Notes under the pieces: model-generated
What the model was told of the DNA's origin: nothing
Seen by the model: only the letters and a program-made list of their open reading frames with translations
The model's database searches: none
Assembly (NCBI GenBank): GCA_030272155.1
Contig: CP126197.1
Coordinates: 5,820,001-5,884,000, forward strand
Direction of reading: 5' to 3'
From: Tetradesmus obliquus
Lineage: Eukaryota > Chlorophyta > Chlorophyceae > Sphaeropleales > Scenedesmaceae
DNA length: 64,000 nucleotides
Shown: positions 1-64,000 of the stretch, piece after piece
Position numbering within the stretch: the first letter of the stretch is position 1
How the letters are laid out: every line of letters starts with the position of its first letter
Program-made: the position numbers and the translations under genes

Positions 1-11
1 CTGCCGCGCAG

Positions 12-770
12 TACTTGCTGGCTGGAGGTGCCGACGCCAACGCACTCTACCGCCTGCCGGATGGCCGCACGGTCACGCCACTGACCTGGGCGGCGCTGTG
101 TGCAGCAGCTGCCACATACAACAGCACGGCTGGCTGGGACAAGCGCTATCCAGGTTTCAGCATCAAACTGCTGCTAGATGCAGGTGCGATGCGGAAGGCA
201 GGTGCTGCACACAGCACAGTTGAGTGATATGCGGATACCAGAGCGCACTGTAGCTGTGACGCACACTGGCATGAAATGAAATTCCACCAGCCCAACTTTC
301 ACGCTTTGCTGAACACGCTGCTTGCATACACGTAATGCAGCTGTGTGGCGACACAAGTCCGTGTCTGCATATACAGGCGCGGACCCCCTTCCCTTTGGCC
401 CAGCCAACCCCCCTAGCGCGCTGCTCTACCCCCACCCCCACCCGCTGTCGCACTGCAACAAGCCAGGCGCCTGCAGCGAAGCGGAGGGTGGACCGCCTGT
501 ATGATGCCAGCTGGGATGGCGGTGCAAAGTTCCCCGAGGACTTTTCGTACTTCCACTGGTGGACCCTGTGGGGCAGGCAGGAGGCCAAGGCGGCAGGCTC
601 TGCTGTGAAGCCAGCGTTGGCTAGCTGGTGGGTGCTTGCGCTGACCTCATCATGCGTGTGTAGGCGCAGCAGGCGGCAGCTGCAGAGCTGGTGGTGCCTT
701 TGGCACGCAGTGGGTATGCTGGTGGTGATCCTAGCAGTGTTACTGTTGCGTTGCTTGCGTGTAAACCAAT

Positions 771-810
<40 letters not shown>

Positions 811-1780
811 GGCTTGAGTGCTTACGGGTGACAGCACAAATGAATGCAACACCGCTAGAACATTGCTGGCTGTTGAATACGTGATCTAGCACTCTATGTG
901 GCGGGGCGCTCCACAAGCCAGCGCACGCAAGTCTGTCAACAGAGGCAACGTTGCCATGCATGCCATGACATGAGTGCAGGGGGTGTTGGCTGCCATTTGA
1001 TTGGGCTGAGGTCAGGGACAGCGCTCCACCGTGCTGGTGAAGCCGCCTGTAAGCAGAATTACGTGTCTCGTCCTTGCAATGTGTGCTTGCTGTCGTAGGC
1101 GTCAGCACCATGGGGGCTACGATCGCGAGCTTGTTGAAGCAGCGCTGGCCATAGCGCGTGCTTGGGCCAAGAAGGCTGCGGAGCGCTATGCACGCGCCTA
1201 TCCGCTGCACGGAGCCGTGGCCGCCAACAACCTAACTGCTGTCACCGCGCTGCTGGCATCTGGCAAGTTTGATGTGAACGGCAGGGACTACAGGGGCCTC
1301 ACACCCCTGCAAGCCGGCATGGCGTGCGAAAAATCAGATGTGGATTGCTGGACGCCAGTGGAACCTGTTGAGATTGCAGTTACCGAGTACCTTGTCAGCA
1401 AGGGCGCAGATGTGAGGCTTGATGTGTACCTGGGAAGCGGCTACACACTGCTGCACAAGGCTGCTTTCCGCGGGCTGACACGGCTGGTGAAGGTTCTGCT
1501 CAATGGTGGCGCTGACCCCAATGCGGTGTACTATGCGGCGGATGACAAGCAGCGCAAGGACCCGCAGACGCCACTCACCCGGGCTGCATCGCACTGCAGC
1601 GTTGATGAAGCTGTGCGTGATTCTCTCCGTTTACATCACGGCATAGACGAGTCTGAACTCAATAGCTTAGAGGGCGCTGGGCCAGACTCCACCAACGGCA
1701 CAATCACGGCGCTGCTGGATGCGGGCGCAAAGCTGCTGCCATTTGGCAAGGAGCGCCCGCTTATTAGCCTTAGGCCTTAG
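12..1780 (+). pseudogene. ANK-A: broken, left-truncated member of the ankyrin/secreted family
   Basis: Three exons of the family are visible: 12-183 (YRLPDG..VTPLTWAALC block, preceded by an acceptor AG at 10-11), 377-627 (ADPLPFGP and CNKPGACS block) and 1099-1780 (ankyrin block with PLHGAVAANN, GLTPLQAG, GYTLLHKAAF and GGADPNAV). Exons 1-2 of the family plan lie left of the window or are absent. Exon 377-627 has one extra G in the run at 485-487. The sibling genes read GAG-GTG there; this copy changes frame, and the exon length is one base off the family phase. The last exon ends at RPLISLRP, about 80 codons before the family C-terminus, inside a short repeat shared with the convergent gene. 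I read it as a pseudogene. A sequencing error at the G run would remove one lesion but not the truncation. Confidence 0.8.
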
Positions 1781-1840
1781 GCCTAGCCCCTAAAACTGCT
1801 TAGGCCTAGCCCCCGCCTTAGGCCTAGCCCCTAAAACCCA
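1765..1840. repeat. TTAGGCCTAGCCCC direct repeats at a gene junction
   Basis: Three near-identical units built on TTAGGCCTAGCCCC, two of them followed by TAAAAC, lie exactly where ANK-A stops and the convergent secreted-protein gene ends. The units contain the palindrome TAGGCCTA and two octamers CCCTAAAA, the complement of the Chlamydomonas-type telomere unit TTTTAGGG. Both neighbouring stop codons lie in or at the repeat, so it probably marks a rearrangement breakpoint. Confidence 0.6.
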
Positions 1841-9700: not shown

Positions 9701-10644
9701 CATGCGCCCGCACGGCGGCGGCAAACAACCACCATCTAACAGTTGCTCCCCGCAGAGCAACGAAGCACTGTACTACTGACACAAAGTGTTTGTCCAACCC
9801 CCTCACCTGAGCATTGGCAGCTGCGTGTACCCCGCCAGGTCACCCAGCAGCTTCGCCCCGAGTGTCCTGCCCGCGCTCAGCGCCCAAGGCATGGAGGGGC
9901 TCAGCTTCAACGCCTCACCACTGCTGCTGCTGCTGCTGCTGCCGCCGGCGTAAGTCAACGCCGCTGTGATCTCAAACTGCAAGGAGGCCTCTCCCAGGCC
10001 GTAGCCCTGCGGGGAGGGGCGTTACCGGATATGTAGCACAGCAGCGCATGAAAGCAGCAACATCAGTCACAGGGCACAACTGCTGCACAAACAGCAGCCG
10101 CCTTGAACATGTGAAGCAGCGTTGCGGTGAAACAGCGACTGCTTGAAGCAAGGCCGGAGTGGCGCAAGCAATATAAACCATGGGTGCGTCAACCTCATCA
10201 GATCCCCGATCCTCCTGCTGCCAAGCACTGCTTTTTAACTCCCACTACCTCCACTGCAGCGTGCAGGGAGAGCAACAGCGATAAAAAAACACGTCCACCT
10301 GCCGCACTCCACTGGGGCAGTGATGCACATTGACTTCTTGCCGTCATCCTGCATCCAGTGCTTTAGCAGTCGACTAGTTACAGCCACTCACCCCATGCCA
10401 TTGCTCGCCCATCTTGAAGCAACCTCCTCCTGCCCCACTCCACTGGCCAAGGCCATTTGGGGCAGTGATGCGAGGAAAAAATGACACACGTCCTGCACTC
10501 AGTGTTGCAGCAGTCAGTCACTCACCCCGTACCAGTGCTCGTCCATCATGAGGCAGTGCGCGCTGCAGGGCTTGCGCCCTATCAGGATGTCCAGCGGGTC
10601 GGAGAAGAAGTCGCAGTCCAGGTTGGCCCGCCTGCAGCAGGGGC

Positions 10645-10702: not shown

Positions 10703-12802
10703 CACATAAAGATGACACATGAGCTTGCCACCTGGCACCGGATCGCCACCTGCAGGACGCTGTCCTCCATCATATGGCACACAGAGCATGGTCACACCGC
10801 CCTTGACCAGGCTGCTGCTGCTGCTGCTGCTGCTGCCAGCACCAGCCGCCGCTCACGTGCGCTCCGTGTTGGTGCCAAAGGTGGTGTCCCAGATCTGGCC
10901 CGCATCACATTCACACACAAAGCCCTGGCTGTCGTCCACCTTCTGCCCCATCACGTAGTACCAGTTGCAGGTGGGAGCCTCGTCAAACGCATCAGCCTGC
11001 AGCCAAGGCAGCAGAATTTGAAAACAGTGGCAGCAGCGACGGGTCAGAACCTCAGGCCAGGGCAGCTGCATGTTGAGGCAGGCGCAAGGCAAGCAGATAC
11101 GGCAGCAGGCAGATGAGTAAAGCACTGGGAACCTGACCTGCTGCTGCTGCTGCTGCTGCTCTTGCTGTAGCCGGCATTGCTGGGTGGATGTCTGGGCGCT
11201 GCTTGTTCCTGGTTGTGGCGCTGGTGCCGCTGTAGTAATGCATATAGACCATGAAATGCAGCTGCTGTACGTGATGGTGCTAATTGATCTCAAGCTGCGT
11301 ACACTACTCCGCTGGTGCCAGTGTCTGCTGACACCACCGATGCTGCCGCCCCCGCCGCTGCTGCTGCTGCTGCTGTCACTGCTGCCGACCTTGCAATTCC
11401 CGGCTCCTGGCCGCACAATTGCCTCATATGGCTTGTAGTTGAACGACTGCAGCAGTACACAGTAGCAGCATGGTGTCAGAAACTGAAACCATGCAAAGCC
11501 AGCAACTCCAGCAGTGTCAGTGAAAGAGCAAGGTGACATGCTGCGCTCCTGCAGGTACGTCAGAGAGTAGCTGGCTGCGTCTGACAAGCGGGCACCTGTC
11601 TAGCTTGCAACTGTGACAGCGACCGAGCAACACAAAAGCATCATGCTGCGCACCTGCAGGTACGTGAGTGGGTAGCTGGCCCACAGCGGCCCCTTGCTGA
11701 GGCTGACTGTGAGGCTGCTGGCCAGGTCACGGCAGCTGCAGGAGGGGTCGGACGCATAGTTGCAGGGGCAGGGGCACTGCCCTGTCGGGCTGCAGCACAT
11801 GCCACAGGCAGCCAGTACACACAAGGTTGGGGTGCTGGGGTGAGTGTATCATAAGGTGGCACGAATGGCTTGAGTAAAATGGGTAGGCAGCGGCTGTGAT
11901 GCTGCTGATGCATGGGGTGCAGCTGCAAGCCCAACAGCTCAGCAGAGCAGTAATGGACGCACAGGCAAGGTCCGGTGTGAAACTGGTGCAGCACCAGCTG
12001 CAGACGTTCAAACGCCGCATCTGTGTGCATGCCTGCACAGCTGAGACACGCGCTGCCTCACAGCCAGCATGCCCTGCAACTGTGCACAACTGCTGCTTTG
12101 CAGAAGCTGCGCTTAAACCAGATCTGTCAGAAGGCAGCATTGTTCCTTGCATGACGCACAGCTGTCGCTTAGACCCTGTTGTAGCACTTCGGTGCTGTTG
12201 CTGGTGTGTCAGCTGGTTGCGCTGCTTGCTGCTGCATACCACGCAACACAGCGACCTGCTCAATCTGCCAAGAGCTACTTCTGGGCACGCAACAGCTGTG
12301 GAGCTATCTTGTTTGCTGTGCCTTACCTGCCGACACAGTTGAGTGTGAACTGCAGATCCTGGCTGGCAATGCTGTCTCCACTGTCCACTGACACCACCAC
12401 GATAAGCTTCTGGCTGCAGACTATTGACGTGCTGTTAGCACCCTGACGAACATCAAAATCATACAGCAGCAGGTGAAGTGTGTTGGTGCATGTGCAAGGA
12501 GTCCAGCAGATAGAAGCAGGCTGTCACGCTAGCTGTACAGCAGCAGGTGGGCTGTGGTGGGCCATACATACTGCAAAGGTTGCGATCAACGCATGTGACG
12601 TGATAATGAATTGTTTGATAAACGATTCGTGTTATTTGAGGTGTCCCGTGCGTACTGCTGCGCCCACCTGCGTTCCATTCCTGATGCACGACTCGAGCTT
12701 GCTGCTGGAGATGATGTCCACCGCTAAAGCTGGCTTATACAATACCAAATAACATATTAGATATATTACAATGCCGCACGCAGCATATCGCGGACGAAGC
12801 AT
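3918..12802 (-). CDS. HAP2: HAP2/GCS1 gamete membrane-fusion protein
   Basis: HAP2/GCS1 is a class II-like fusogen that merges gamete membranes after adhesion. I read 16 exons: 12668-12802, 12327-12442, 11654-11789, 11390-11446, 10857-10996, 10526-10631, 9807-10006, 9400-9526, 9153-9212, 8773-8902, 8464-8580, 8117-8252, 7745-7886, 7362-7455, 6063-7001 and 3918-5695. They sum to 4,413 nt, 1,470 aa, with all phases matching. The first exon is short; its ATG at 12802 opens a signal peptide (MLRPRYAACGIVIYLICYLV). Family landmarks: PTCNWYYVMG then DSQGFVCEC, the HAP2-GCS1 signature TRANLDC..CSAHCLMMDEHWY, LGEASLQF, LGDLAGYTQLP, VLMIPHP, SPGKIL and VRVEFYTN. One membrane helix lies near residues 600-631, followed by a Cys pair. 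The remaining roughly 835 residues are a Q/S/A-rich cytoplasmic tail, from memory longer than in Chlamydomonas. Exact donors of small exons are the main uncertainty. Confidence 0.92.
10315..10422 (-). repeat. Degenerate copy of HAP2 exon 6 tail plus donor, inside the next intron
   Basis: The stretch repeats 10456-10558: GGGGCAGTGATGC, a CAGTG..GCAG stretch, then CACTCACCCC followed by a degenerate copy of the exon end. On the minus strand the original reads DEHWYG then GTGAGTGAC; the copy reads GEQWHG then GTGAGTGGC. Only one exon edge is duplicated. Confidence 0.7.
11537..11578 (-). repeat. Partial copy of HAP2 exon 3 tail
   Basis: Copy of 11643-11684. The original reads ASYPLTYLQ then GTGCGCAGC; the copy reads ASYSLTYLQ then GAGCGCAGC, so its donor GT has become GA. 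It lies about 100 nt downstream of the true donor, in the intron. Confidence 0.8.
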
Positions 12803-18248: not shown

Positions 18249-21200
18249 ATGGCAGCCACAATGATGAAGGCAAACAACCAGCTGGCGCGTGCCAGCGTGC
18301 AGGGCCGCGCTGCTCGCGTCTCTGCCCGCAGGGCAGTGGTCGTGAGGGCTGCAGCTGCCAGCGACGACCTGGGCTTCAAGACCATGCGCAATGGTGTCAA
18401 GGAGGCATCAGCTGAGAGTCTGCTGACTCCCCGCTTCTACACAACGTGAGTGCCTAGCATCATGCAAGCACTCCGGGCCCTCCCGGCCACAAGGCAATGC
18501 CAAACAGCAATAGAAATGATAAGCATGTTGTTTAGCTCAAAACTAGCAGGGTTGCGTCGACTCTCACGCCAGCAGCAGCAGCTCGTCAGATGCGTGGTTT
18601 GGACTGTTCTAGCTGTGGTGACCGGCATGTTTCAGCCATGTGCTAGCTGATCAGGCGTTGATCAGCCACTGAAGGGCCAGCATATGCTATGTTATAGCCT
18701 TTTGGTGCACAGAGTGGGCGTTGCAGCTCTCCGCAGTGGATAGCATCAAGCTGAGCGCAACATGTTCAGGCACCAGTGCTGCTGTCGCCGTAGCTGCGTG
18801 TCGGCATGCAGCTGTGACAGGCATGCAGCAGCGGGTCACCATACACTGCAAGCATCCAATTCAGCAACCTTCCATACCATGGCGTGCACCATCATGTGTC
18901 GGTTACGTCATGTGTTATGCCTGCACCACCACACCTTGGCTTGTGCCCTGCGCTGCCAACCGCTCCAACCTCCCCCACCCGTCCCGCTTTACATCTTCAC
19001 CTGTTGTCAACTTGCATCTTGATCTTGCGTCAAATCTTCTTCTCTTATTCTTCTGCAGCGACTTTGATGAGATGGAGCAGCTGTTCAGCCAGCAGATCAA
19101 CCCCAACCTGGACATGGCGGAGCTGGAGGCCATGTGCACAGAGTTCAAGAACGACTACAACCAGCGCCACTTTGTGCGCAACGAGACCTTCAAGAAGGCC
19201 GCGGAGGGCATCACAGGCGAGACACGCAAGATCTTCATCGAGTTCCTGGAGCGCTCCTGCACAGCAGAGTTCTCCGGCTTCCTGCTGTACAAGGTGTGCG
19301 GCGATTTGGGAGTTGCGCAGCAGTCAGCAGCTCAGGACATGGCTTCTATTTCACAGTGACTAAAACAGCAATGTCCTATGCCGAGTTCTCCGGCTTGCAG
19401 TTGTACAAGGTGCGGCGCGGCGGGCTGCTGCTGTTGCTGCAGCTGCTGCTGATTCTGCACACATAGTAGGGTACTGCTATGTTGCGTGCTGCACAGCAGG
19501 ATGTGGTTGCAAGCCGTCAGTGGCCATTGCTGGGTTGTCCTCTTTCTGAAGGAGAGTGACCCGAGGTAGCAACAAGCGCTGCTCTTTTCTCACACGTGCT
19601 CACCGGCTGCTGCTGTTGCTGCTGCAGGAGCTGGGGCGCCGCCTCAAGTCCACCAACCCCGTGGTGGCTGAGATCTTCACGCTCATGAGCCGCGATGAGG
19701 CCCGCCACGCAGGCTTCCTCAACAAGGCCATGTCGGACTTCAACCTGGTGCGTGGCTGCCCAGCCAGTCCGCTAGTTGGTCATGTCAGCTGCTCAGCACC
19801 TGCAGCTGTTTTGCAGTGTCAGCTGTTGTACAGTGTCAGACAGCAAATTGATGCAGGCTTCCTCAATAAGACCATGTCAGACTTCAACCTGGTGCGTGTG
19901 GAGCATGGCAGCAGGCAGCTGTTGGCAAAGCATCAGCAGCTAGTGTTGCGGGTGCTGAGGGAGAGGCAGCGCAATGGCGCAGGCGGCAGCAACGCAACAG
20001 CAGAGCCAACACAGTGGACTACAGCAGGCTGACTGAGCTTAAAAGCACAGCGAAAGCGGTAGAGCAGCAGCAGAGCAGCAGTGCTGTTACCTGGTTGGCG
20101 CATCAGCTGTCGGCCTTCTGCTGCAGCTGTGGCTCACTGACTGGGGCCCGCATCATCACCATCTGATGTACTGCTGCTGTGGCTGTGTTTCCTGCAGGCG
20201 CTGGACCTGGGCTTCCTGACCAAGAACCGCAAGTACACCTTCTTCAAGCCCAAGTTCATCATCTACGCCACCTACCTCAGCGAGAAGATCGGCTACTGGC
20301 GCTACATCAGCATCTACAGGTGCGCAGGGTGACACAAGTGCGCCGATGAAGTGCGCTTGTTACTTTCTGCAGTTTGAACGGCGCCGACAGACAGCCCATC
20401 TCGTAGCCGGTTTCCTGTGTCCTGCAAGCAGCAAGCGCATGCTTGTCATAGTGGCGCCAAGTAATGTTGCTGATGGACTCACCATGCTGCTGGGCTGCTG
20501 TTGCTGTGATTGCTGCCGTGCTGCAGGCACCTGCAGCGCAACCCCGACAACCAGCTGTATCCGCTGTTTGAGTACTTTGAGAACTGGTGCCAGGACGAGA
20601 ACAGGCACGGCGACTTCTTCACAGCCATCCTCAAGGTAGGGAGGCTGTTGCTGCTGTATTGCAGCCCTTGCGGCAAGGCCAGCTGTGCGCAGATGCAAGC
20701 GCCTGACATGGGGTTCATGCAGCAGGAGCAGCAGCAGCTGTTGGCAGGTTGATACCCGCCGCAAAGAAGCCGCTTGATGTGCAGCAGATGGTGGCAGTCT
20801 TTGTAGCAATGCCAGCCAACAATCAACCATCTACCTGCCATTTCTCTGACTCTTCTGGCGCGCTGCTGCCCCTTGCAGGTGCGCCCCGAGTTTGTCAACG
20901 ACTGGGTGGCCAAGCTATGGAGCCGCTTCTTCTGCCTGTCCGTGTACATCACCATGTACCTCAACGACCACCAGCGCAGCGCCTTCTACGAGTCCCTGGG
21001 CCTCAACACCACGCAGGTGCGGCGCTGCCCGGGAGCAGGACGTAGTTTTTTGCAGCAGCCATCATTTCTGCAGTTGAGCTGCTGACGTCACATGTGCATG
21101 CGCCCTGGCAGTGCATGTGGTGTTGCGAATCAGGGTGGTTATGCTGGAGCTTCCTGTAAGCAGCCTTGTCAAGCGTACAACTCTCGTTGGCAAGCTGCTG

Positions 21201-34435: not shown

Positions 34436-35689
34436 CAGCAGCAGCACGTTTGTTTATAGTGATACAGGCGAAGCATCACTAGTGGCCTCAACTGCGCGCA
34501 CAAAAGCACTGGCCCTTCCCAGCTTCTACAAGCCACCACCACAAGGTTATCAGAATGCAGTTATACTGCATGCAAGGATGTTAGCAGTATGTCCTTGTGC
34601 ATGGACAAAGCAAACCAATTGTGTGCTGACGGTAGGATTTGACCAGGTCCAGCACCTACCAGCTTGCAAGCTTTGGCTTCATGTTGGGGTTTGCTGCCTT
34701 GGCCTCCTGGGCCTCCCACAGCGGCCGCCAGCTGTTGTACACAAAGCCCTTGGGGAAATGCCTCTGCAGGCCTGTGAGGCGCTGCATCTCTGCAAAGCTG
34801 CAGGCGCCAGGCTTGTTGCACTTTGACAATGGGTGGGAGCTGCCAGTAGGCCAGAGCAGTGCGGTGGCCGGGTTGGCTGGGCCAAAGGGCAGTGGGTTGG
34901 CGCCTGCAGCAGGTTTGGCAGCAGCAAGGGGTGGGAGGGTGCGTGCCATGTACAGCAGTGCGCTGTGTGCTGCCTTGCGCTGCGGCAGGCGGCAGCTATC
35001 CTAGCGTGCATGCAGCATGCACATCTCAGCAGTCGATGCAGTCTGTGCTTTGCACACCAGCTGGCTGTGCAGCTGGTGGCTCTCCTGTGCAGGCTCTACA
35101 CTGGGTTGCTGTGCAGGCGCTGCACGTCACGATATAATCGTGTCACCGTGTCGCCGCATCCTATCGCCGTGTCACCTCACCTGCATCCAGCAGCACCTGA
35201 ATGCTGCTGCCCGGGTAGCCATACTCAGTGCTGTTCTTGTTTGCCGCTGTGCAGAGTGCCGCCCAGGTCAGCGGCGTGACGGTGTGGCCGTCCGGCAAGC
35301 GGTAGGGCGCGTTGGGGTTGGCACCCCCAGACAGCAGGTGCTGCAAATGCAGAGGCAGCAAGTGATGTAAAGCACAGCGATGCACATGTGTGCAAACGCT
35401 GCCCTGGTGAGGGGCGTGGGGTTGGCAGCCCCAACCAACAGATGCTGCAAAGGCAGCAGCAGCATCCAAAGCGCAGCAATGCTTGCAAGCGATGGGGCAA
35501 GCACGAGGCTGTTGACACCAACATGTTGTGAATGGATGGCACTGATAAAGGAAGGCAGCATCACGTAAAAAAAAACTGCTGCTGGTGGACATCTTGTGCA
35601 AGCCTGTTTCTGCTGGTGAAGCCGGTCGCATGAAGCATGTGCCACAGCCGCAAGCCGCTGCAGACATGCCGCTACCACCACCAATACCA

Positions 35690-39359: not shown

Positions 39360-41583
39360 GCCATGCTACCATCCAGCTTACAGGTCCGCCCCGCTTTTAC
39401 TAACCGCGCTGGCCCTTGTAAGCCCCGCTGACAGCCATTGATGGCCGATGCAGTAACAGGTTTGGTGCTGAATGTGTGATGTGGCCAGTACAGCACTTAC
39501 CAGTCTGCCAGCTCCTGCTTTGTGTTGGGGTCAGCTTGCGGGTGCGGCAACATTGCTGCCAAATGCCACCCCCAACAGCTGCGTCACTGCCGACTACACA
39601 CGATCAGACAAGTAAAAACACACACCAATCACCTGTAGCCAACTATCTCCACCGGTTTTGCATTTGGGTCGGCAAGCTTGGCCTCCTGCGCCCGCCACAT
39701 GTCATGCCATGCGCCAAATCTGAAGTCCTCAGGGAACTTTGCGCCACTAAAGATGCGGTCCACCTCCACTGCGCTGCATGCGCCCGGCTTGTTGCAGCGT
39801 GACAGTGGGTGCGGCTTGGGGTAGGCGAGGGCACTAGGGGGATTGGCCGGGCCAAAGGGGAGGGGGTTGGCGCCTGCAGGAAGAGGATGTCAACACAGAT
39901 GACGTGAGATGATGTGACAGCAGGTGCGGCTTGGCGTATGTTATGGCGCTGGGTGGGGAGGCGGGGCCGAATGGAAGAGGGTCAGACACTAGTGTGGCGT
40001 TGTGTAAGCATGGCTTCACTCTCAAACCGGGCGCTTGCAAATACAGTATGCGGCACAGTACCACTGTGCTGCCTTGTGAACACCCTGAGCATTGAAGTGC
40101 ATGGGTGTGTATTCTTCAGTGTTTACTCTCTTCGGTGTTCTTCGGTGTTTCATTCTCTTCGGTGTTCACTCTCTTCTGTTCTGGTCTCAAACCATGTGCT
40201 CATCCTGTTGTGGCCCATACTGTTGGTGGGCACCTGGCACCAACAGTACCTGGAATGTAATGATCCTTTTTTAGAAAGATGTTTTCTGCAATGTCTAGTC
40301 GGCAACTGCCAACTGCCAACTGCAACACACCTGCAACCAGCAGGTCGGCAATGCTAAAATAAGGGTAGCCGTACTCAGTGGTGTTCTTTCCTGCCGCTAT
40401 GCACAGCGCCGCCCAGGTCAGCGGCGTGACGGTGCGGTTGTCAGGCAGGCGGTAGGGGGCGTTGGGGTCAGCACCACCTGCCAGCAGGACCTGCAAAGGC
40501 AGAGGCAGCAATTAATGTTGTTAGTGTCTGCCAGCGCAGGATTGAGCGCAGTGGATGTGTGTTTGGCTAGCATGTGAATGCTGCCCTGCTGAGCAGGTGT
40601 TCACCCTGGCACGGCTTATTTGTAAACATCAACATTTGTCATCAACACGATGGGGTTCATGAAGCATATGCAAGTGCCACCACCAGCTGCTGCTGCTGCT
40701 GCTGCTGGTGCTGGTGCTGCTGGTGCCTGCAGCTTTGTATTGCTCTAGGTGTCCCTTGTGGCGCATCTTGAACACACATCAATGTATCCCCCTGATCTCA
40801 TTGCTGCTGCTGCTGCTGCTGCCGCTGCTGCTGCTTCTGCTGCTGCTTCTGCTTCTGCTGCTGCTGCTTACGCTTAGGTCGTTGGAGCCGCTGCAGGCCG
40901 CACGGTGCACCAGCTTGTAGCCGGGCCGCTCCTTGGGGAACACGTCAACATTGACATCAGCGCCAGCACAGATGAGGCTGGCAGAGATGCCATCTGCGGT
41001 GCCTGTAGCGCAGAAATGCAGCTCGCCATTCGGCACCATGCGGGGGAAGCGGCCTGTGTAGTTGCCTGCAGATTGGAGCGCAGCAGGATATTGGTTTTTG
41101 AATTGAGGCTACAAACCTGCAGTATCGTCGCAGAAGCACACTGTTGGCACCTCCACTTTCTGGCAGCTTCCTCTACGCTGCCATTTACTAGTATATGTAG
41201 TATACTACATCGGACTACTGTTGGACAGACAAGTTCCGCTCAGCAGCAGGCGGCAGCATGGCCGCGGCTGCAGAAGTGGCCCAAAGCATGCTGACGCTGA
41301 TTCAACATTTTCTGGAGCATCATGATGCTGATCAGCATGCTGATCTGCTAACTTGCTTTGAGCACTTCAGCATCAGCTCACTGCATGTAGCCAGCGCAGC
41401 AGCCAGAGGGGTCCTGCCGTTGGCATCCAGCCCGTTGACGTCATACTTGCGGCTGTCCAGCAGCTGCTGCAGCAGCACGATGTCCTGGTTGACCGCAGCA
41501 TCATGCAGGGGACTGCTGTGGCTGGGTGGGCAGGCCAGCAGCAGCAGCAAGGCCACTGGCAGCAGCAGGGCTCTGCCGGGCAT
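38441..41583 (-). CDS. ANK-E: full-length ankyrin/secreted family protein
   Basis: Five exons: 41382-41583, 40872-41065, 40331-40490, 39633-39873 and 38441-39239; 531 aa, open throughout. Signal peptide MPGRALLLPVALLLLLACPP, then SPLHDAAVNQD and KYDVNGLDANGRTPLAAAL (ankyrin unit), GELHFCATG and GADVNVDVFPKERPGYKLVH, GGADPNAPYRLPD, ANPLPFGPANPP and CNKPGACSAVEV, then in exon 5 at least four ankyrin-like units (PLHVAVAADNLTAV, GLTPLQVGMG, GYSLLCKAAFHGLTRLVR, GGADPNAV) and a conserved tail CVKIGACSEAQLQAV and FELVWRLQEKQAA. The first 5-exon member that is intact on this strand. A second possible exon 4 end (QELADW then GTAAGT at about 39500) lies downstream in the same phase and is a stronger donor than the one used here, so exon 4 may end differently. 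Confidence 0.8.
39497..39548 (-). repeat. Second exon 4 tail in the ANK-E intron
   Basis: Minus strand reads ADPNTKQELADW then GTAAGTGCTG, a copy of the family exon 4 end. ANK-F has the same extra tail at the same place (54985-55025), with shared sequence GTGACGCAGCT.TTGGGGG before it, so the duplication predates the two genes. Confidence 0.8.
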
Positions 41584-46002: not shown

Positions 46003-46051
<49 letters not shown>

Positions 46052-49923: not shown

Positions 49924-49955
<32 letters not shown>

Positions 49956-50097: not shown

Positions 50098-50137
<40 letters not shown>

Positions 50138-51484: not shown

Positions 51485-51528
<44 letters not shown>

Positions 51529-51676
51529 GCAGAGCAGACGCTGCAGCTGCCGCACCAGAGCACAGAAGGTGCACATCACCACGCAGAATCAACAGCAGCG
51601 GCGCCACATGGCTCTACTGCTATTTCTGGACCAGTAGCGACAGGGACACCGGCAGCGGCAGCAGCAGCAGCGGCAG

Positions 51677-51725
<49 letters not shown>

Positions 51726-53228: not shown

Positions 53229-56088
53229 ATGCCAGTGCCTGGCAGAGCCCTGCTGCTGCCAGTGGCCCTGCTGCTGCTGGTGGCCTGCACACCCGGCCAC
53301 ACCAGCCCCCTGCACGATGCTGCGGTCAACCAGGACATCGTGCTGCTGCAGCAGCTGCTGGACAGCCGCAAGTATGACGTCAACGGGCTGGATGCCAGTG
53401 GCAGGACCCCGCTGGCTGCAGCACTGGCGACATGCAGTAAGTTCTCCTGTGGTCTTCTGCAGTTTCCTGCGGTCTAAAAACCAGGTAGCATCTCAAAAAG
53501 CCGCTGTTACACAAATCATTCAGTCATGTGCTGCATGTTAAAGGCTTGAGAAGCAGCACCAGCCATTATGCCACAGCTCACATCATAGCAGGATGTGTGC
53601 CAGCTGGCGGCGCAAAAGTGGGGTGCTGGAAGGTGTATTTACCGGCAGGATGCTGCAGAGGCAACAATGTATGTGTGCAGCCACAACTCAAGTCATGTTG
53701 CGCTGTTGTGCCCCTCCCTGCAGGCAACTACACAGGCCGCTTCCCCCGCATGGTGCCCAATGGAGAGCTGCAGTTCTGCGCCACAGGCACCGCAGATGGC
53801 ATCTCTGCTAGCCTCATCTGTGCCGGCGCTGATGTGAACGTTGACGTGTTCCCCAAGGAGCGCCCCGGCTACAAGCTGGTGCACCTGGCGGCTTGCAGCG
53901 GCGCCAACGACCTCTATGTGAGCAGCAGAAGCAGCAGCAGCAATGGAGGCGGCAGCAGCAATGATGGAGGCAGCAGCAGCAGCAATGATGGAGGCAGCTT
54001 GTAGATATGACATGCGTGTGTTGCTGTGCTGCGGAAGCAATTGACCACACAACTGCAACAGCGCTGCTGCCAGCATAGGCTGCATCATGTGCTGCCAGCA
54101 CCATCAAGCGTTTAAGCCATGTCTGCTCACCATGACTGCGGCTCGGCTGCTCGCATATACAGTCCTGCTGCTCACTCCACTACGTGCAAACACTGATGTG
54201 CACCACATGCTGCTGCCGCTGCTGTTGCGCAGTACTTGCTGGCAGGTGGCACTGATGCCAACGCCCGCTATCGCCTGCCTGATGGCCGCACGGTGACGCC
54301 GCTGACCTGGGCGGCGCTGTGTGTGGCGGCTGGCAAGAACAACACCGAGTACGGCTACCCAGGCTTCAGCGTTGAGAGGCTGCTGGGTGCAGGTGCGAGG
54401 CAGTGGGCGGGTGCTGTACACATAGCGCAGCAGGATGGGTTCTGATTTCTGTTAAGCAGGGCAGGCAGCACCCTTGTGCATGGCAACCGATCATCTGCAA
54501 TGCCATGCTGCAGACGTTCACAATGGAAGCAACACAATACTATGGATCCCATAATACGTGCTGCAACGCAGTATACTGCAGCGCAGTGTGAGCAACTGGT
54601 TGCTGTCATGATGCCATGTATGTCTCCTGCAGGCGCGGACCCCCTTCCCTTTGGCCCATCTGCCACCCCACCCAGTGCCCTGGCCTACCCCAAACCCCAC
54701 CCGCTGTCACGCTGCAACAAGCTGGGCGCCTGCAGCGCAGCAGAGGTGCAGCGCATCTTTGATGCCAGCTGGGAGGGTGGTGCTAAGTTCCCTGAGGGCT
54801 TCAACATTGGCTACTGGCGGCCGCTGTGGGAGGCCCAGGAGGCCAAGGCAGCTAACCCTAACACGAATCCGGAGCTGGCTGACTGGTGGGTGCTGCCAGT
54901 TACTTGGCTGATCGTGTGTATGTGAGCGCAGCAGTGACGCAGCTATTGGGGGCGCTTCTGGCAGCATTGTTGCTGGACCCGGAAGCTGACCCTAACACAA
55001 AGCGGGAGCTGGCTGACTGGTGGGTGCTGCCGCTGGTGTCATGTTATGCTATCCTCACCCGACACTGCAACGGTTGTTAGTATCTGTCAGCACAGATATT
55101 TGCCGCGCTGCGTCTGCACTGCATACTAGTTGGGGGTTGGAGAAGAGGGGTGGTTTTGAAGTGGGATGGTGCCACCACCATTGTTGCTGTGTGCTTCATC
55201 CCTGCTGATCCCTGTTGCTGTTGCTGCTGCAGGTTCAAGCGTGGCAAGAGCTATGCCTGCAAGTCTGCAGATGATTACCTCAAATCTGAGCTTGCCAGCC
55301 GCAAAGAGACCGCAGAAAAGCAGCGCTATGCGCGCGCCTACCCGCTGCACGTGGCCGTTGCTGCGGACAACCTGACAGCGGTCAAAGCTATCATGTCATC
55401 TGGCAAAATCGATGTGAACAGCAAGAATGACAAAGGCCTCACACCGCTGCAAGCTGGTATGGGCTGCAGCAAGACAGACTTTTGGTGCTGGCCGCAGGTC
55501 GGGCCTGACGTTGCCGAGTTCCTTGTCAGTAAGGGTGCCAATGTGAGGCTTGATGTGTACCCGGGAAGTGGCTACACGCTGCTGCACAAGGCTGCTTTCC
55601 ATGGGCTCACTCGGCTGGTGAGGGCGCTGCTCAAGGGCGGCGCTGACCCCAATGCCGTGTACTATGCGGCGGATGACAAGCAGCGCAACGACCCGCAGAC
55701 GCCTCTTACCAGAGCTGCGTACTGCGACTTCCGCCGCAGCACAAATGACGGCACTGGGCCAGACTCCACCAACGGCACAATGCAGGCGCTGTTGGATGCG
55801 GGCGCAAAGCTGCTGCCCTTCGGTAAGGAGCGCCCGATGACAAGCTTCTTCTTGACGCCTCAGAGTGCGCAGAAGTGTGTGAAGATTGGGGCGTGTAGTG
55901 AGGCGCAGCTGCAGGCAGTGCTGCCAGACTTCAAGAGTGGCTCGTGCCCAGTGTCGTTTGAGCTGGTGTGGCGGCTGCAGGAGAAGCAGGCGGCGGCTGC
56001 AGCCGGCAAGCCGCCACAGCAGCAGCAGCAGCAACAGCAGCAGGCTGCTAAGCAGTCAGGCCGGCGGCTGAGGGCTGTTGTGGTGTAG
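53229..56088 (+). CDS. ANK-F: full-length ankyrin/secreted family protein
   Basis: Best-preserved member. Five exons: 53229-53436, 53724-53917, 54233-54392, 54633-54885 and 55233-56088; 556 aa, phases 1, 0, 1, 2. Signal peptide in residues 1-28 (PGRALLLPVALLLLVACTPG), then HDAAVNQDIVLLQQLL (ankyrin unit), NYTGRFPRMVPNGE and GADVNVDVFPKERPGYKL (70-134), GGTDANARYRLPDG and TPLTWAALC (135-187), ADPLPFGPSATPP, CNKLGACSAAEV and WRPLWEAQEAKAA (188-271), and exon 5 with the ankyrin block (PLHVAVAADNLTAVKA, GLTPLQAGMG, GYTLLHKAAFHGLTRLVRAL, GGADPNAVYY), TSFFLTPQSAQKCVKIGACS and a Q tract before the stop. A hydrophobic leader on an ankyrin protein is unusual. Start fits siblings; two more residues than MPGRALL come from MPV. 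Function unknown. Confidence 0.85.
54932..55027 (+). repeat. Second exon 4 tail in the ANK-F intron
   Basis: Reads EADPNTKRELADW then GTGGGTGCTGCC, copying the true end ANPNTNPELADW then GTGGGTGCTGCC at 54855-54897. A possible acceptor GCGCAG precedes it at 54926-54931, but that would give an 88-nt exon that breaks frame. Confidence 0.8.
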
Positions 56089-57226: not shown

Positions 57227-57401
57227 TCACTGCTTGGGCGGCTTGTGGTCTCCCTCTCCCGCCTTGGGCTTGTACTCGCCCTTGGCTGCTGCTGACGCCA
57301 CAGCCAGCTCCTGCAGGTACAGCGCCTCCATCTCAGGCAGCTTCAGGCCACCCTGGCACAGCGCAAACAGCGGCATCTGCGGCAGCAGCAGCAGCAGCAC
57401 C

Positions 57402-57433
<32 letters not shown>

Positions 57434-59425
57434 GTTTGAGCACTCCTGCAGGTACAGCGCCTCCATCTCGGGGAGCTTCAGGCCGCCCTGGCACAGCGCA
57501 AACAGCGGCATCTGCGGCAGCAGCAGCAGCAGCATGTCAGCAACATCAGCTCTGCAGGTACAGCGCCTCCATCTCGGGGAGCTTCAGGCCGCCCTGGCAC
57601 AGCGCAAACAGCGGCATCTGAGGCAGCAGCAGCAGCAGCAGCAGCAGCAGCGGCAGCGGCAGTAGCAGCATGTTTGAGAACTCCTGCAAGTACAGCGCCT
57701 CCATCTCAGGAAGCTTGAGCCCGCCCTGGCACAGCGCAAACAGCGGCATCTGCGGCAGCAACAGCAGCAGCAGCAGCAGCAGAGAAGCGGTGCGTGGTAG
57801 GCAGCAGGTCAGCACAAATTGCCGCAACAAGAACAGCCGTGTGTCAAGGTCCAGAGCAGGCAGCATGCATTCAGTATCAGCCGCATGCAGCTGTCATACG
57901 GCTGCCGTACTCACCGGCTGTACTCACCTGGTGTCATAGGCAGCGCCTGCCAGCACAACACACTGCGTACAACGCAAAGCTACATCCTGCTCGCACCAGC
58001 CGCAAGTGCAGTCCATTATGCCGAATATGCCAACTCGCGAGTCGCCCATCTTCTCCTGCAGCTGCACAGCTTGCTACCCCCATCACAGAGACAATCGGCT
58101 GCAATGATACACTCAACAGGCAGCACGCTGCACACCTGCAGCGCCGCACTCCATGAGAAGGACAGGTTGACAGGCAGGTTCCCGTTCTTCTGTTTCAACA
58201 CGATCACCTTGACTCCTGCTGCTGAGCACAAATCATGGCCCAGGCTTGCAGCCCAAGATTCCTCATCAGCCGCAGCTATTAATTTGCCAGCCAACCAGCA
58301 GCCAGCCTGCTTCCCTGTCACACCGTACGCAACAGCTGCAACGGCTGATCACCGTGAACAGCCAGCCATTGTGCACGCCTCAGCACCACACACCTGCAGC
58401 GCCGCACTCCAGCTGAAGGACAGGTTGACAGGCAGGTTGCCCTTCTTCTGGTTCATCACGCTCAGCCGCGCAGCCGCGTCAGCCAGCGACTGGCCGCCGC
58501 TGAGGAAGTTGGCGGAGCGCACCGCGATCGGCATCACGCGCTTGAACAGGTCCACGTTGGCCTGAGCGATCTCGTCCACGCTGCACATGCGTACACGGCA
58601 CAGCACGGATACAGTACAGTCAGCAAACAGCAGTGAGATACAGGTCAGCATAAGGCAGAGGCAAACCATGTCAGCAGATGCCCAGAACCGGTCCATGTTG
58701 GCCTGTGCGATCTTGTCCACGCTGCATGGGCACAAAACGCATGCAATACATGAAACAGGGGCACAGGTGTGGCAGGAAACCGTTGCGCTGCAGTGGAACA
58801 GGTCCACGTTGGCCTGCGCGATCTCATCCACGCTGCAGGCATGTGCATGTACAGGACAAGGTGCTGTTGTGGGGGCACAGACTACTTGCACAGCAGTGGA
58901 ACAGGTCCACGTTGGTGTGCGTAATCTCGTCTGCGCTGCATGGGCACACAGCGCAAGGGTGTTTGCTCATGTGCCGCAGGCTGAGGCTGGTGCAACGGCA
59001 AGGCAGGGGTGCTGTGAGTGCTGCCTGGCGGCGGCTACTCATAATGTATTGCAGTCAAACAGCACATCATGTGCCGTTGCAGCGGCGTGAGACGTGTTTT
59101 TGAGGCAAGCTGATACAAGCGGCTGGCCGCACTGGCTTCGCCTGGCCTTAGGTATTGTTAGCAGGCATGAGCGGCTACATCAAACCATGAATATTGCTTT
59201 CAACCACGGCTGCTGTCTTCGCACCTGTAGGGCACGGGGCACTGCCTGCCTGGGTTGACGATGTTGCTCTTGAGGATGACTCCCTCCATGAACACGCCGT
59301 GCTCCAGCAGTGCCCTGTACAGCACGCTCTGGATCTTCGTGTTGATGGCCAGCGCTGACTCCAGGGTGTGTGTGCCAGCCATGGACACGTCTGGCTCCAC
59401 AATGGGCACCAAGCCCACGTCCTGC

Positions 59426-59468
<43 letters not shown>

Positions 59469-60674
59469 ATTCAGAACAAGGTTTGGCCAGTTGCGATGGC
59501 CTCCATGAACAGCTGCAAGCTGACGTCACGCTGCCAGCCCTGCAGACTTGCACACCAGGCAGACAAGTGCGTAGCACGCCAGGTTTATCACGTATGAAGT
59601 GTGTGTCAGTTATGCTGTCAACACCTCACCTGCCAGATGAGTGCATACCCCGCCAACTCTAGCATATGGGTGTTGGTCCTGAACCCTAAACCCAAACCAC
59701 AATTCCAGCAATCCACAAACTCTCCGCCTCAGACCAGCATGCCGGCCCACCTGGCAGATGAGGGCGTAGCGGGCCAGGTCCAGCATGTTGGCCTCGATCA
59801 CACCCGTAAACATTACCCCCTCAACTGCAACTCATAAAACCTAACCCACCTGGCAGATGAGCGCGTAGCGGGCCAGGTCCAGCATGTTGGCCTCAATCAC
59901 AAAGTCGCTGGGCTGGCCGTTGGCCTCATCAATGGCCATCGGGCTGCGCCACTTGGCAAACACAGCCCCGGCGTCCTTGTACTCCTGCAGGCGGGCTGCC
60001 AGGGAGTCCAGGCCCTGCGGCAGGATGGATTAACAGGAAAGTTACACCGGTGTCAGTCAGCGGCTGCGCCACTTGGCAAACACAGCCCCGGCATCCTTGT
60101 ACTCCTGCAGCCGCGCTGCCAGAGAATCCGGGCCCTGTGCATGCATTGCAGCACAGCAGCAGGCTGTTAAGCATTGGGTGTGATTGGCACTTGCAAACAC
60201 GGCCCCGGCGTCCTTGTACTCCTGCAGGCTGCCAGGGAGTCCAGGCCCTGCAGCAGCAAGTTGCACAGCAGCAGGTGCGCAGTGGGTGTGAAGCTGGCGC
60301 CTGTGTGAGCGGTGCGGCGCCACGTGATGCGTACAGCTCTACATGGAGGAAGGCACGTACAGCATGGGTGGCAAAGGTTACATGTTCACGAACAGTTGTG
60401 CCTGATATGCGGGGACTGCAGAACTCAGCTGCTGGCACATAACAAAAAACGCCAGATATCTGCGAGAGGTGACTATCTGTGAGTTGACCAGCTGCCAGCT
60501 CGCATGGTGCTGCAGCTGGCAGTCTTAGTGCCACACGTGTTTGCTGCTTGCGGAGCAGCGGATGAAGAACCTAGCGCGCATCAGCTGCTGCTGCCGCGGT
60601 CACCTGCATGTGTGTTGAGCCGCGCTGCCCAGGCAGGTTGTACACCTTCAGGTGGGGCTTCACGCCTGCAGCAC

Positions 60675-60727
<53 letters not shown>

Positions 60728-62545
60728 GCCCAGGTTGCTTGTTGTTCACGCACACCTAGCAGGACGCCCAGCTGCTTGAGGCGATGTATGAACAACACCC
60801 TGTATCCACTGCCAACAAGTTTCATTAACAACTCGCAGCAGCCTGACTCAGGCCTCCCCGCACCTGGCATGATGCCCAGCTGCTTGAAACGCTGAGCGAA
60901 CAGCAACCTGCAGCTACTGCCAACAAACATCCATAAAGATTAAAAAGAAACAACAGCTTGAGTCCAAGCCCTGGCCCTCGCACCTGGCATGATGCCCAGC
61001 TGCTTGAGGCGCTCGGGGAAGAGCGGGGCGCCCTCGCTGGTGGAGCGCTGCCACAGCGTCTCAGGGTCCAGGATGGCCGCACACAGGTACTGCAGCAGCG
61101 GCAGCAGCAGCAGCAGCGATGAACTTCAGGGCACTCTGCAAGCGCATGCAAATGACAAACAGGCCTGCTGCATTGCGCATCACAGCTCTGAAGCACAGGA
61201 CGCATGGCTGTGGCTGGGTCTGCGGCTTCACATGGAGAGCAGTTTGAGGCTGGTGCAAGCAACCCCTGCAAGCAGCCGAATGGCTGCCCTGCATGCAAGC
61301 GCGTTGCTGTAGGCTGAGCTGTAACGCTGGCGGCTCACCTGGTTGGCGCCGGGCGCCTCAAACAACATCTGGCGGTACGCGCGGCGGTTCTGCAGCACCA
61401 ATGCATGCGGCAACAGCAACATGCGTGGCGTGTCAGCGCGAAAAAAAGCCACACACACTTAGGTGCTGCGGTGCGGCAGCCTGTATCTCAGCTGTTGCTG
61501 GCTGCTTCTTCAGCAGGCCAGGCTTCGCCCAGCTACTGAGGCCGTGACAGCAGCTGCTGGTGTGGTCTGCACTGCCGCTGCCGGTGGTCTGTTGCCGCTG
61601 CCATCCAGGTCAGCAGCCTGCCAGACACTACAAGGCCCAGTGACTGACACATCAACTCCCAAACAGCTGCCACCAAGAATGCTGCTTGCCTGATTTATGC
61701 CATAACATCACAGCTGCGCACCTTCCTGCTGTTCTCGATGCCGTACTTGGCCAGGGAGGCACCTGCAAACTAGCCACCCCCCCCCAGCCAATTGCTGTCC
61801 TACTGCCGGCCATCAAACCACAGCCACACCTCCACCTATTCTTGATTGTCGATGCCACACACAATCGGGCACACGCATATATCCTCTGCGCTCAGCTGCC
61901 CAGCCTACTGCTGCCCCGGCAACTGCCACATTGCCCAGCACCACCGCGCACCTCCTCGCTGTTCTCGATGCCGTACTTGGCGAAGCGGTCCCCGATGGTG
62001 CCGGGCCCCTCGTCACAGGCCGTGATGCCCTTGCCGGGCTGTGCGATGTGCTCAGCCACAGCCTCCAGCTCAGCCTTGCGGGCCTTGCTCAGGTGCGCGC
62101 CGTTGTGGCAGCTGTGGAAGTAGCCGCTGGCGCTGGCCGTCACGCGCACGCTGCGGGCGCGGCTGGCGCGGCCGGCCGCGTTGGGGCGCTGCAGGGGGAA
62201 GAAGGAAGAGTATGGGCGGGTGGTGTGCTAGATGTAGTAGGAGCATGTGGGAGGCATGTCATTACATGCTGTGAGGGTTGCTGGTTCTGATAATGGTGGT
62301 GACTTGGCAGAAAGCTATAGCTTTCAGGTTGCTGGTGTGGTGCAGGTATGTAGCTGCTGTCATTGCTGCAGGCCAGCTGCTGCAAGATTTGGAAAGTGGG
62401 TGCTTTCGGGTTCATGCCATCAACCACAGTGGCGGCAGAAGATGCCTGAACTCATGGCTTGATAACCTTTGCTGCAATATGTTCGTATGAGCAGTTGATT
62501 GAACTGGTGACCGCTGCAACTGTACCACCTTGCACCTCGTTTCCT

Positions 62546-62579
<34 letters not shown>

Positions 62580-62641
62580 GGGGCGGGTCCTGCTGCTGCA
62601 TCACGTACCTGGGCCCCAAAAGGCTTAGCCTGCATCTGCAT
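57227..62641 (-). CDS. FBA: Class I fructose-bisphosphate aldolase, plastid type
   Basis: Cleaves fructose-1,6-bisphosphate, and in the Calvin cycle makes it and sedoheptulose bisphosphate, through a lysine Schiff base. Nine exons: 62609-62641, 61952-62188, 61339-61389, 60984-61089, 60604-60665, 59850-60014, 59225-59421, 58394-58580 and 57227-57376; 395 aa, all phases match. Residues 1-32 (MQMQAKPFG, RPNAAGRASRARSVRVTAS) look like a plastid transit peptide. Active-site segments: GITACDEGPGTIG (Asp near 70), NRRAYRQMLF, GAVFAKWRSP (Lys near 184), VPIVEPDVSMAGTHT (Glu near 227) and GVILKSNIVNPG (Schiff-base Lys near 269), then FLSGGQS and LSFSWSAALQ. The C-terminal tail is lysine-rich without the classic Tyr. 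Exon 1 is short and its ATG least certain; an acceptor-like CTGTAG just upstream would allow a further 5' exon. Introns hold at least 14 partial exon copies. Confidence 0.93.
57444..57760 (-). repeat. Three extra copies of the aldolase exon 9 start with acceptor
   Basis: Copies at about 57444-57520, 57551-57630 and 57677-57760 each read CTGCAG-type or GCCGCAG acceptor (one CCTCAG), then MPLFALCQGGLKLPEMEALY and LQ. The true exon is at 57227-57376. Copies are joined by CTG tracts; coding differences are few and mostly silent. The last part of exon 9 (AVASAAAKG onward) is in the terminal copy only. Confidence 0.93.
58131..58202 (-). repeat. Copy of aldolase exon 8 tail with donor
   Basis: Reads KQKNGNLPVNLSFSWSAALQ then GTGTGC, copying NQKKGNLPVNLSFSWSAALQ then GTGTGT at 58394-58455. 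It lies in the intron between exons 8 and 9. Confidence 0.9.
58684..58944 (-). repeat. Three copies of aldolase exon 8 start with acceptor
   Basis: About 58684-58728 (SVDKIAQANMDRF), 58793-58840 (SVDEIAQANVDLF) and 58894-58944 (SADEITHTNVDLF), each after a minus-strand GCAG acceptor. The true exon starts at 58580 with SVDEIAQANVDLF. Divergence rises with distance from the exon. Confidence 0.9.
59621..59806 (-). repeat. Two copies of aldolase exon 6 tail with donor
   Basis: 59747-59806 reads VIEANMLDLARYALICQ then GTGGGC, near-identical to the true end at 59850. 59621-59669 reads MLELAGYALIWQ then GTGAGG and is more diverged. Confidence 0.88.
60060..60258 (-). repeat. Two copies of aldolase exon 6 start with acceptor
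   Basis: 60060-60140 reads GPDSLAARLQEYKDAGAVF and AKWRSR; 60189-60258 reads GLDSLA.LQEYKDAGAVFA with a small deletion. Both copy the exon 6 start at 60014. Confidence 0.88.
60750..60898 (-). repeat. Two copies of aldolase exon 4 tail with donor
   Basis: 60858-60898 reads RFKQLGIMP then G/GTGCGGGG; 60750-60790 reads RLKQLGVLL then G/GTGTGCGT. The true end is RLKQLGIMP then G/GTGCGAGG at 60984. Confidence 0.88.
61718..61762 (-). repeat. Copy of aldolase exon 2 tail with donor
   Basis: Reads LAKYGIENSRK then GTGCGCAGC, copying FAKYGIENSEE then GTGCGCGGT at 61952. Confidence 0.88.
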
Positions 62642-63675
62642 AGCTCCGTATACAGCAGGAATCAGGCCAACCTACAGCCAATTCAGCACGTCACCCGCAA
62701 TGAGTTCGTGTTTTGGGCGGACATATCTCGCAGGCAGTGGCACTCAAGCCCCATTAGTGTCAGCGCGACGGTAAACTTGTCATAACTAAGATTTATACTG
62801 TACAAGCAGTTGCAGTGCTTGTTATGAGCTACGGTGGTCAGGTCGTTGCGCTGCTCAGGGCTGGCTGTTCAAGCAAGACTAGCACCTGCCTTGAGCGGTC
62901 AACAAGCAGCTTTTTTCCCACTCGTGACTTGAAAGGTGTAATGTTTCAGCAATCCAGCTGGCTATGGCGCCACAGCGAACCGCAGCTCTGAACTGTGCCC
63001 TGAGCCCTGCTGCTGTGAAATGCCATGCCATCACATGCGGTTACAGCATGACCCTAGTTCTGCTTGCGGTAAGCTAATTGCCTGCAGGCGAAGCCAACTG
63101 CAAACCAAAAGTACATTCAACAGCACGGACCATCAGTCACCATATACATCACAAATACAGACAGCCATGCCAGCCTGGCACCAGGCATGCTGATCGCCAC
63201 CCTGCGTTGCCGCAAACTAAGAGTGGGGATTGACCGTTCCTCACATGCACACAGCCGGAGCAAAACAAGCACGGCTGCAACTGAAACAATCGGTTGCAAC
63301 AGCAAAGATCTTTCACAACTTGCCAAACCCCTCACACCAACAGTTCCAAGTCAGAAACACCACCTTGACTACGCCCTCCTCAGACAACTGCCTGCGCAGA
63401 AAAATCAACAATGCTCGGCAGCCACCGTACAACAGTAGCAGCAAATGCAGTGTACACCGACACAGCTGGCGCGTCGTCAGTGCCAGCAATCAGCAGCAGC
63501 CTGCAGCCTACTGCAGAAGGAAACAGATGCGCACTAGATGCAAGTGACAAGCTACAATGCTGCCTGCTGCCCCACACGCTGATTCCCTAGCAACACGGAG
63601 CGTGCAACTGACAGCCCCCCAAAAGACAAGTGATGCTGCTGCTGGACGCATGCAGCTTTTTGACAGCCGCAATAA
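62642..63675. other. Region upstream of the aldolase gene
   Basis: Presumed promoter of the minus-strand aldolase gene. No TATA box, exon or repeat could be singled out. Confidence 0.4.
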
Positions 63676-64000
63676 TCATAGCACGGCAGCAGGAATGATA
63701 GTCACAGGTAAAGATATTGTCTCGACAAGCACAGATGTGCGACGCTGTACACGATACTTCTCTGCATGCAGGATGGCATGCAGCAGCAAGATCATACTAC
63801 ATACTCCAGCTGCCACAGCAGCAGCACCAAGAGCTGATGCAATCCTGAGTTGGTTGTGGACGAAGCAGCAGCCTGCGCGGCTGTGCAAGACACCGCAGGT
63901 TCCTGCTGTTGATGGCACGAGTACATGGTCCACACACAACAAACATTCCCACAACACACTGAGCCCACGCACAGAACCCGTAAACATCACTCCACATCAT
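63676..64000 (-). CDS. Possible partial membrane-protein exon at the right edge
   Basis: A minus-strand frame contains a hydrophobic segment (RIASALGAAAVAAGVCSMIL, then LLHAILHAEKY) followed by a basic stretch and a stop at 63676. It could be the last exon of a gene entering from the right. There is no recognisable family, and the frame upstream may be intronic, so support is weak. Confidence 0.22.

Follow-up and report, generated by a model that had tools for sequence, protein, structure and literature searches.

Ordered partial copies of exon edges in the introns of the green alga Tetradesmus obliquus resemble the mirages of lancelets

In amphioxus, direct repeats lying across exon-intron boundaries are known as mirages. 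The available portion of one account reports that both the 5' and 3' boundaries of exons are duplicated, with units of 10-72 bp in Adh3, of 150-160 and 157 bp in globins, and of 60 and 108 bp in PGBD5; the AG/GT dinucleotides are kept in many copies, and normal splicing is said to persist (PMC3087553). The accessible part of a second article also deals with amphioxus mirages (PMC3902484). Here we analyse exon-edge copies in the genome of the green alga Tetradesmus obliquus, starting from a 64-kb stretch (hereafter the window; G000:C7:5820001-5884000) of a 104.7-Mb, 17-contig assembly. Within the window, such copies occupy introns of a class I fructose-bisphosphate aldolase gene and of the gene CHL27/AcsF. 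For comparison, 10-kb stretches were drawn at random from this genome; 19 were readable (190 kb) and one, L035, was dropped as it is all N.

The algal copies resemble mirages in being direct repeats that cross from exon into intron or from intron into exon (39 at 18 edges, and a further nine at three edges). Both boundaries are affected, sometimes with donor-side and acceptor-side copies within one intron. The unit length falls in the same range, which we take as about 10-160 bp: for 17 of 21 edges the distance from the real edge to the nearest copy is 99-151 bp, and for the other four it is 173-258 bp. Unlike lancelet mirages, these arrays occur in a green alga, in many unrelated genes, and include many old, decayed copies. 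The order of copies and the excess of synonymous differences are measurements made here. An earlier note on this DNA had suggested a previously undescribed source of gene-structure change, but as a kind it was already known from lancelets (PMC3087553, available portion). What is new, as far as the literature listings show, is the green-algal lineage, the abundance of the arrays and a synonymous excess that is unexplained. A search of the open-access literature returned no report of such exon-edge arrays in algae, which does not show that none exists.

Other known arrangements share individual features with the algal copies. Mutually exclusive tandem exons likewise add exon-like units to introns and are conserved at the codon level. 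Such exons are complete, have both splice sites and keep the frame, whereas the algal copies are partial, and 12 of 46 are in frame and open. Introner elements are a source of change in green-algal introns. Unlike these, the algal copies match the local exon rather than a dispersed element: a search with a single stretch, 57250-57780 of the window, gave, beyond itself, mainly matches on CAG/CTG tracts and showed no dispersed element. Schiml, Puchta and colleagues reportedly found in 2016 that paired single-strand breaks can lead to short tandem duplications in plants. The nearest evolutionary model is intron gain by tandem duplication, which has in common with the algal arrays a short duplication carrying splice signals. 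According to the available portion of a study of potato RdRp, such a duplication copied an intron-exon structure (PMC4974935), whereas the algal copies lie inside existing introns and no new intron is shown.

In the window, the aldolase gene carries 15 partial exon-edge copies, each with one splice junction, in six of its seven traced introns (introns 1, 3, 4, 5, 6 and 7), and all 15 sit within introns flanking complete exons (Table 1). The protein read from this gene is 100% identical, as rounded by the tool, to an annotated T. obliquus protein (P0001, OEZ85_013406), with two residue differences noted by reading. The annotated protein corresponds to the chain of real exons with no copy inserted, and its annotation may be only a prediction. 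Two donor-side copies, again with one splice junction each, were found in CHL27/AcsF. These two genes bear out the proposal of the earlier note that introns here hold partial copies of a neighbouring exon edge. Where that note counted six such genes, two are proven by homology and the rest are plausible, with five loci recognized by eye only; the open reading frames (ORFs) scanned at these loci (10380, 11529, 35312, 39799 and 54846) gave no Pfam match.

The copies follow a consistent order, which the earlier note had also proposed. In the set of 18 edges, which come from three aldolase genes, one kinesin gene and one unnamed gene and were chosen because copies are present, all 39 copies, two of them weak, lie on the predicted side, donor-side copies downstream and acceptor-side copies upstream of the real edge. 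None is on the wrong side and none is a reverse complement. Copies within an array share history and are not independent, and per-edge counts are therefore safer. The same order was found when five protein families, selected in advance to make the test blinder, were searched across the whole genome: all 25 clear copies conform to it (15 of acceptor type, all upstream; ten of donor type, all downstream), and 11 rows were unclear. By our own grouping of table rows into genes, clear copies are present in four of 11 chaperonin genes (PF00118; unclear in two more), two of six tRNA-synt_1 genes (PF00133), two of nine HSP70 genes (PF00012), one of about five Aldedh genes (PF00171; 13 of 68 candidates scored) and one of about 35 kinesin clusters (PF00225, searched at a stricter E of 1e-3). 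The rows set aside as unclear belong to the chaperonins (C15 341-393, C16 247-281, C16 348-396, C17 461-487 and C4 410-488), the tRNA synthetases (C10 187-229, C10 229-250, C13 384-413 and C15 374-401) and the kinesins (C5 161-215 and C6 109-208). Among those counted as clear, C17 55-75, C17 54-75, C14 336-364 and Aldedh C14 143-179 are weak when taken alone (E 0.1 to 1).

Three introns with multiple copies were confirmed in sequence. One kinesin intron holds two donor-side and six acceptor-side copies, one chaperonin intron combines a single acceptor-side copy with five donor-side copies whose spacers are visibly alike, and a second chaperonin intron holds three acceptor-side copies. The chaperonin family had been chosen beforehand, and its C16 gene, with nine copies at three edges, was fetched because the family table showed copies. 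A word-anchored scan for splice-site asymmetry in unannotated stretches gave no clear signal, with too few sites to draw on. The order requires no special rule, because it is what short direct duplication across an exon edge would yield under selection on the protein.

Local direct repeats occur far more often than chance would give. Self-comparison with triplet tracts masked, counting pairs within 1 kb, gave 23 direct and no inverted pairs in the window (four of the 23 from a minisatellite). The random stretches gave 52 direct and no inverted pairs, 23 of them from satellite arrays in L033 and L048 and 29 outside these. A gap-free lag scan returned 171 hits, compared with none in block-shuffled sequence; 98 were kept after the satellites in L033, in L048 and at 30.7-31.1 kb of the window were dropped, as they also were from the word-anchored scan. 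Chance is rejected as the cause of the local repeats, given the absence of inverted pairs and of hits in shuffled sequence. Lags of 100-140 bp account for 24 of the 98 kept hits and form the main peak apart from minisatellite lags of 20-30 bp. When 21 short-lag loci were inspected by eye, with the order rule known to the reader, 14 read as exon edges in the right order. Seven of these 14 fall within the 190-kb random sample, which scales to the order of 4,000 loci genome-wide, a rough figure based on inspection by eye. The identity of copies to their exon spans 73% to 97%, and the duplication process thus seems long-lasting.

Exons of repeat proteins (LRR, TPR or ankyrin) were rejected as a whole explanation for the arrays in aldolase, AcsF, kinesin motor, chaperonin, HSP70 and tRNA synthetase genes, whose folds lack repeats of these types. 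Repeat-protein exons may, judged by eye, account for L031, L041 and perhaps L040 8005-8400. With copies in many unrelated genes, in random stretches as well as in the family searches, the spread through the genome implied by the earlier note is supported, and the presence of real exon-edge copies in many genes of T. obliquus or a near relative is confirmed.

We consider that these arrays are probably mirages that arose from short local direct duplications straddling the exon-intron boundary, with their order kept by selection and the mRNA joining the outermost complete exons. A duplication across a donor would leave extra edges downstream of the complete exon, and one across an acceptor would leave them upstream of it. 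Selection would purge duplications within exon bodies, such that those that survive would be intronic and ordered as observed. Arrays could afterwards grow and shrink by unequal exchange or slippage, and spacers would be expected to decay faster than exon edges. Splicing would normally skip the copies, an outcome that exon definition would favour given the single splice site of each partial copy. Both the duplication mechanism and any exchange with the real exon are what we infer from comparing sequences.

Spacers are alike in array A11 (80% over 143 nt) and also in W_E8a, K_a and the chaperonin array. With regard to concerted evolution, seen in amphioxus mirages as similarity among the copies of a cluster, the acceptor-side kinesin copies are 96-100% alike in the exon part, the middle and near copies of the last aldolase exon are identical, and other arrays have diverged. 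Introns with copies measure 283-1017 nt (n = 11), and those without measure 209-312 nt (n = 6). Several results nevertheless weigh against origin by boundary-spanning duplication, among them the synonymous excess considered below. The spacers of W_E3d, W_E5d, A12_E3d, A12_E8d and K_d are hardly or not distinguishable from shuffled sequence. In three young pairs (W_E5d copy 1, A12_E11d and K_d copy 1), whose exon parts exceed 95% identity, the match extends into the intron for only 6-16 nt beyond the splice site, whereas by our own estimate simple neutral tandem duplication predicts about 90% identity there. Moreover, seven of the 21 short-lag loci read by eye do not straddle an edge or are ambiguous. 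Copies are also unevenly distributed: a check for local repeats found none in kinesin loci L050-L052 (L050 was fetched because two kinesin matches overlapped) or in two of the five aldolase genes (A1 and A1b).

Because intron similarity in the three young pairs stops near the splice consensus, these pairs would suit a process of copying that is bounded by the splice site, in which the neighbouring intron receives just the exon edge with some 6-16 nt of adjoining intron and no tandem duplication occurs. However, other arrays share longer intron spacers and every clear case exhibits the order expected of tandem duplication, and we regard bounded copying as improbable.

The earlier note had also tied the copies to CTG/CAG tracts, which might drive duplication by slippage or microhomology. 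A CTG tract is indeed present in each unit of the kinesin array and of the array at the last aldolase exon, and in most units of chaperonin L054. CAG/CTG is also commoner than expected at the exon-side ends of copies (26 of 35 versus 15.6, the rows not being independent), which is a weak hint for microhomology. However, tracts of five or more units occur in five of 11 introns with copies and in three of six without, and two of 25 short-lag loci overlap a tract versus 4.9 expected at random places, an observed count that masking before the search lowers. The proposed tie finds no association per intron or per locus, and it is very unlikely that these tracts drive the duplications. In all eight tract-bearing introns of the window aldolase gene and C12:2315875-2323056, the tracts are no more than 60 nt upstream of the real acceptor. 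They may be pyrimidine-tract material in this alga, sometimes carried inside acceptor-side duplicated units.

Differences between copies and real edges are enriched for synonymous changes. For the closest copy at each of 21 edges, we counted 59.8 synonymous and 28.2 nonsynonymous differences, a synonymous share of 0.68; the first set contributes 40:23 and the chaperonin set 19.8:5.2. Two weak rows of A12_E3d (score 17) were excluded from these counts and from those of frame and distance, leaving 46 copies at 21 edges. A neutral copy beside a constrained exon would give a share of 0.38-0.49 (P at most 0.001). Under the harshest mutation spectrum, which includes a CpG effect and was applied to the closest copies of the first set only, the null is 0.50-0.51 and P = 0.015. 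All nine copies of the chaperonin set gave 44.8:19.2; taken singly, array C54_a is significant (18:4) and C53_d is not (15:11, P 0.03-0.27). In the first set, the synonymous share is 0.763 in copies with 90% identity or more and 0.448 below that level, where the excess is absent.

Such an excess might arise if the copies are functional alternative exon edges that are used in some mRNAs and kept by selection. The share of 0.68, the counts for the chaperonins alone and the retention of most splice sites agree with this: donors are kept in 22 of 25 copies, and acceptors in 13 of 21 by script plus seven that its offset missed and that were read by eye. However, each copy has one splice site, and splicing at it instead of at the real one would leave the frame intact and open in 12 of 46 cases (six from one kinesin array) and would break the frame or introduce a stop in 34. 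Frame-shifting gaps are present in some close copies, such as the far copy of W_E5a and the second copy of C53_d. On both counts the copies are unlikely to be simply translated. Furthermore, copies below 90% identity look neutral, and C53_d does not reach significance by itself. We therefore give a functional role only a slim chance. With single splice sites and few open frames, the high rate of new alternative exons that the earlier note expected likewise finds no support.

It is also possible, although we stop short of calling it probable, that the synonymous excess stems from demoted real exons, produced by unequal crossing over between diverged haplotypes and followed by neutral decay. An origin of this type fits an excess that is strong in copies of 90% identity or more and absent below. 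It also fits the two residues by which the window aldolase differs from P0001, which indicate that strains differ, and the variation of amphioxus arrays between haplotypes (PMC3087553, available portion). However, it requires a synonymous allelic divergence of about 0.1-0.35 by our own estimate, which is very high. Haplotype demotion would give the synonymous pattern, and exchange with the real exon might do so too. A more doubtful proposal, which we advance tentatively, is that the partial edges are more than dead remnants: unable to serve as complete exons, they would nevertheless retain their amino-acid meaning and might form a local reservoir in exchange with the real edge, such that real edges genome-wide are repeatedly replaced by, or demoted to, intronic copies.

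Several other observations accompany these results. The fifth aldolase gene (G000:C1:11083404-11084791) was found in only two long pieces and has no edge copies; its paralogs are intron-rich. The label 'cyclase' for the copy at L040 6024 (CY) was our own reading and gained no support from Pfam, and the gene is left unnamed. A 93-bp direct duplication at L046:2432-2636, with 97% identity and no clear exon edge, is probably a young event. L048:7062-7548 is a 50-bp tandem array with about 99% identity, and L033 contains a longer satellite-like array. Minisatellites in the window lie at 30808-31017 (23-bp unit, about nine copies) and 38124-38257 (16-bp unit, about eight copies). Long ORFs of 1046 and 857 aa (43031-46168, minus strand, and 49444-52014, plus strand) lie in inverted, partly similar stretches; at E 0.01 Pfam gave no match to either. 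Similar sequence recurs as several diverged copies, in both orientations, at 23268-25891, 31131-36458, 38477-41586 and 53236-56026, and the ORF at 55081-56085 encodes ankyrin repeats.

Table 1. Genes, exon-edge copies and probable exon edges in the window (window positions; a slash marks the splice junction)
Feature	Position	Strand	Remarks
Class I fructose-bisphosphate aldolase gene	57227..62188	-	PF00274; NF033379 3.2e-89; further 5' sequence not traced
Aldolase exon chain	62188-61952, 61389-61339, 61089-60984, 60665-60604, 60014-59850, 59421-59225, 58580-58394, 57376-57227	-	
Donor-side copy, end of first traced exon (AKYGIENSEE/gt)	61716..61751	-	intron 1
Donor-side copy 1 of LKQLGIMPG/gt	60856..60904	-	intron 3
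Donor-side copy 2 of LKQLGIMPG/gt	60753..60783	-	intron 3
Acceptor-side copy (ag/GLDSLA...)	60188..60255	-	intron 4; frame-shifting gaps
Acceptor-side copy (ag/GLDSLAARLQEYKDAGAVFAKWRS)	60062..60137	-	intron 4
Donor-side copy 1 of VIEANMLDLARYALICQ/gt	59746..59802	-	intron 5
Donor-side copy 2 of VIEANMLDLARYALICQ/gt edge	59627..59670	-	intron 5
Donor-side copy 3 of VIEANMLDLARYALICQ/gt edge	59553..59593	-	intron 5; decayed
Acceptor-side copy (ag/VDEIAQANVDLF), far	58899..58940	-	intron 6
Acceptor-side copy of ag/VDEIAQANVDLF edge, middle	58796..58837	-	intron 6
Acceptor-side copy of ag/VDEIAQANVDLF edge, near	58685..58726	-	intron 6
Donor-side copy of NLPVNLSFSWSAALQ/gt	58131..58206	-	intron 7
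Acceptor-side copy of last exon (ag/MPLFALCQGGLKLPEMEALYLQE), far	57681..57757	-	intron 7
Acceptor-side copy of last exon, middle	57547..57620	-	intron 7
Acceptor-side copy of last exon, near	57443..57516	-	intron 7
CHL27/AcsF gene (Mg-protoporphyrin IX monomethyl ester cyclase)	19059..20635	+	part of exon chain read; PF02915 4.1e-9; TIGR02029 2e-96
CHL27/AcsF donor-side copy of 10-residue edge	19380..19409	+	real edge ends 19293
CHL27/AcsF donor-side copy of 13-residue edge	19853..19891	+	real edge ends 19747
Probable exon edge 10514-10555 and donor-side copy 10380-10421	10380..10555	-	unnamed gene; by eye
Probable exon edge 11634-11682 and donor-side copy 11529-11577	11529..11682	-	unnamed gene; donor lost in copy; by eye
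Probable exon edge 35312-35348 and acceptor-side copy 35416-35452	35312..35452	-	by eye
Probable exon edge 39799-39867 and acceptor-side copy 39914-39982	39799..39982	-	acceptor lost in copy; by eye
Two copies of one donor-side edge	54846..55039	+	real exon ambiguous; by eye

Lancelet mirages are described gene by gene in the available portion of the literature (PMC3087553). A genome in which mirages are common, are of many ages and lie in conserved genes offers a natural experiment on the origin of splice-junction duplications. The arrays bear on how splicing ignores many decoy sites per intron, on how introns lengthen, and on whether new introns or exons ever arise from them. Gene prediction in this genus is at risk from copies being added as false exons. 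The synonymous excess deserves to be followed further. If exon edges do exchange with a local reservoir of intronic copies, then gene edges in this alga would evolve genome-wide as small arrays and not as single sites.

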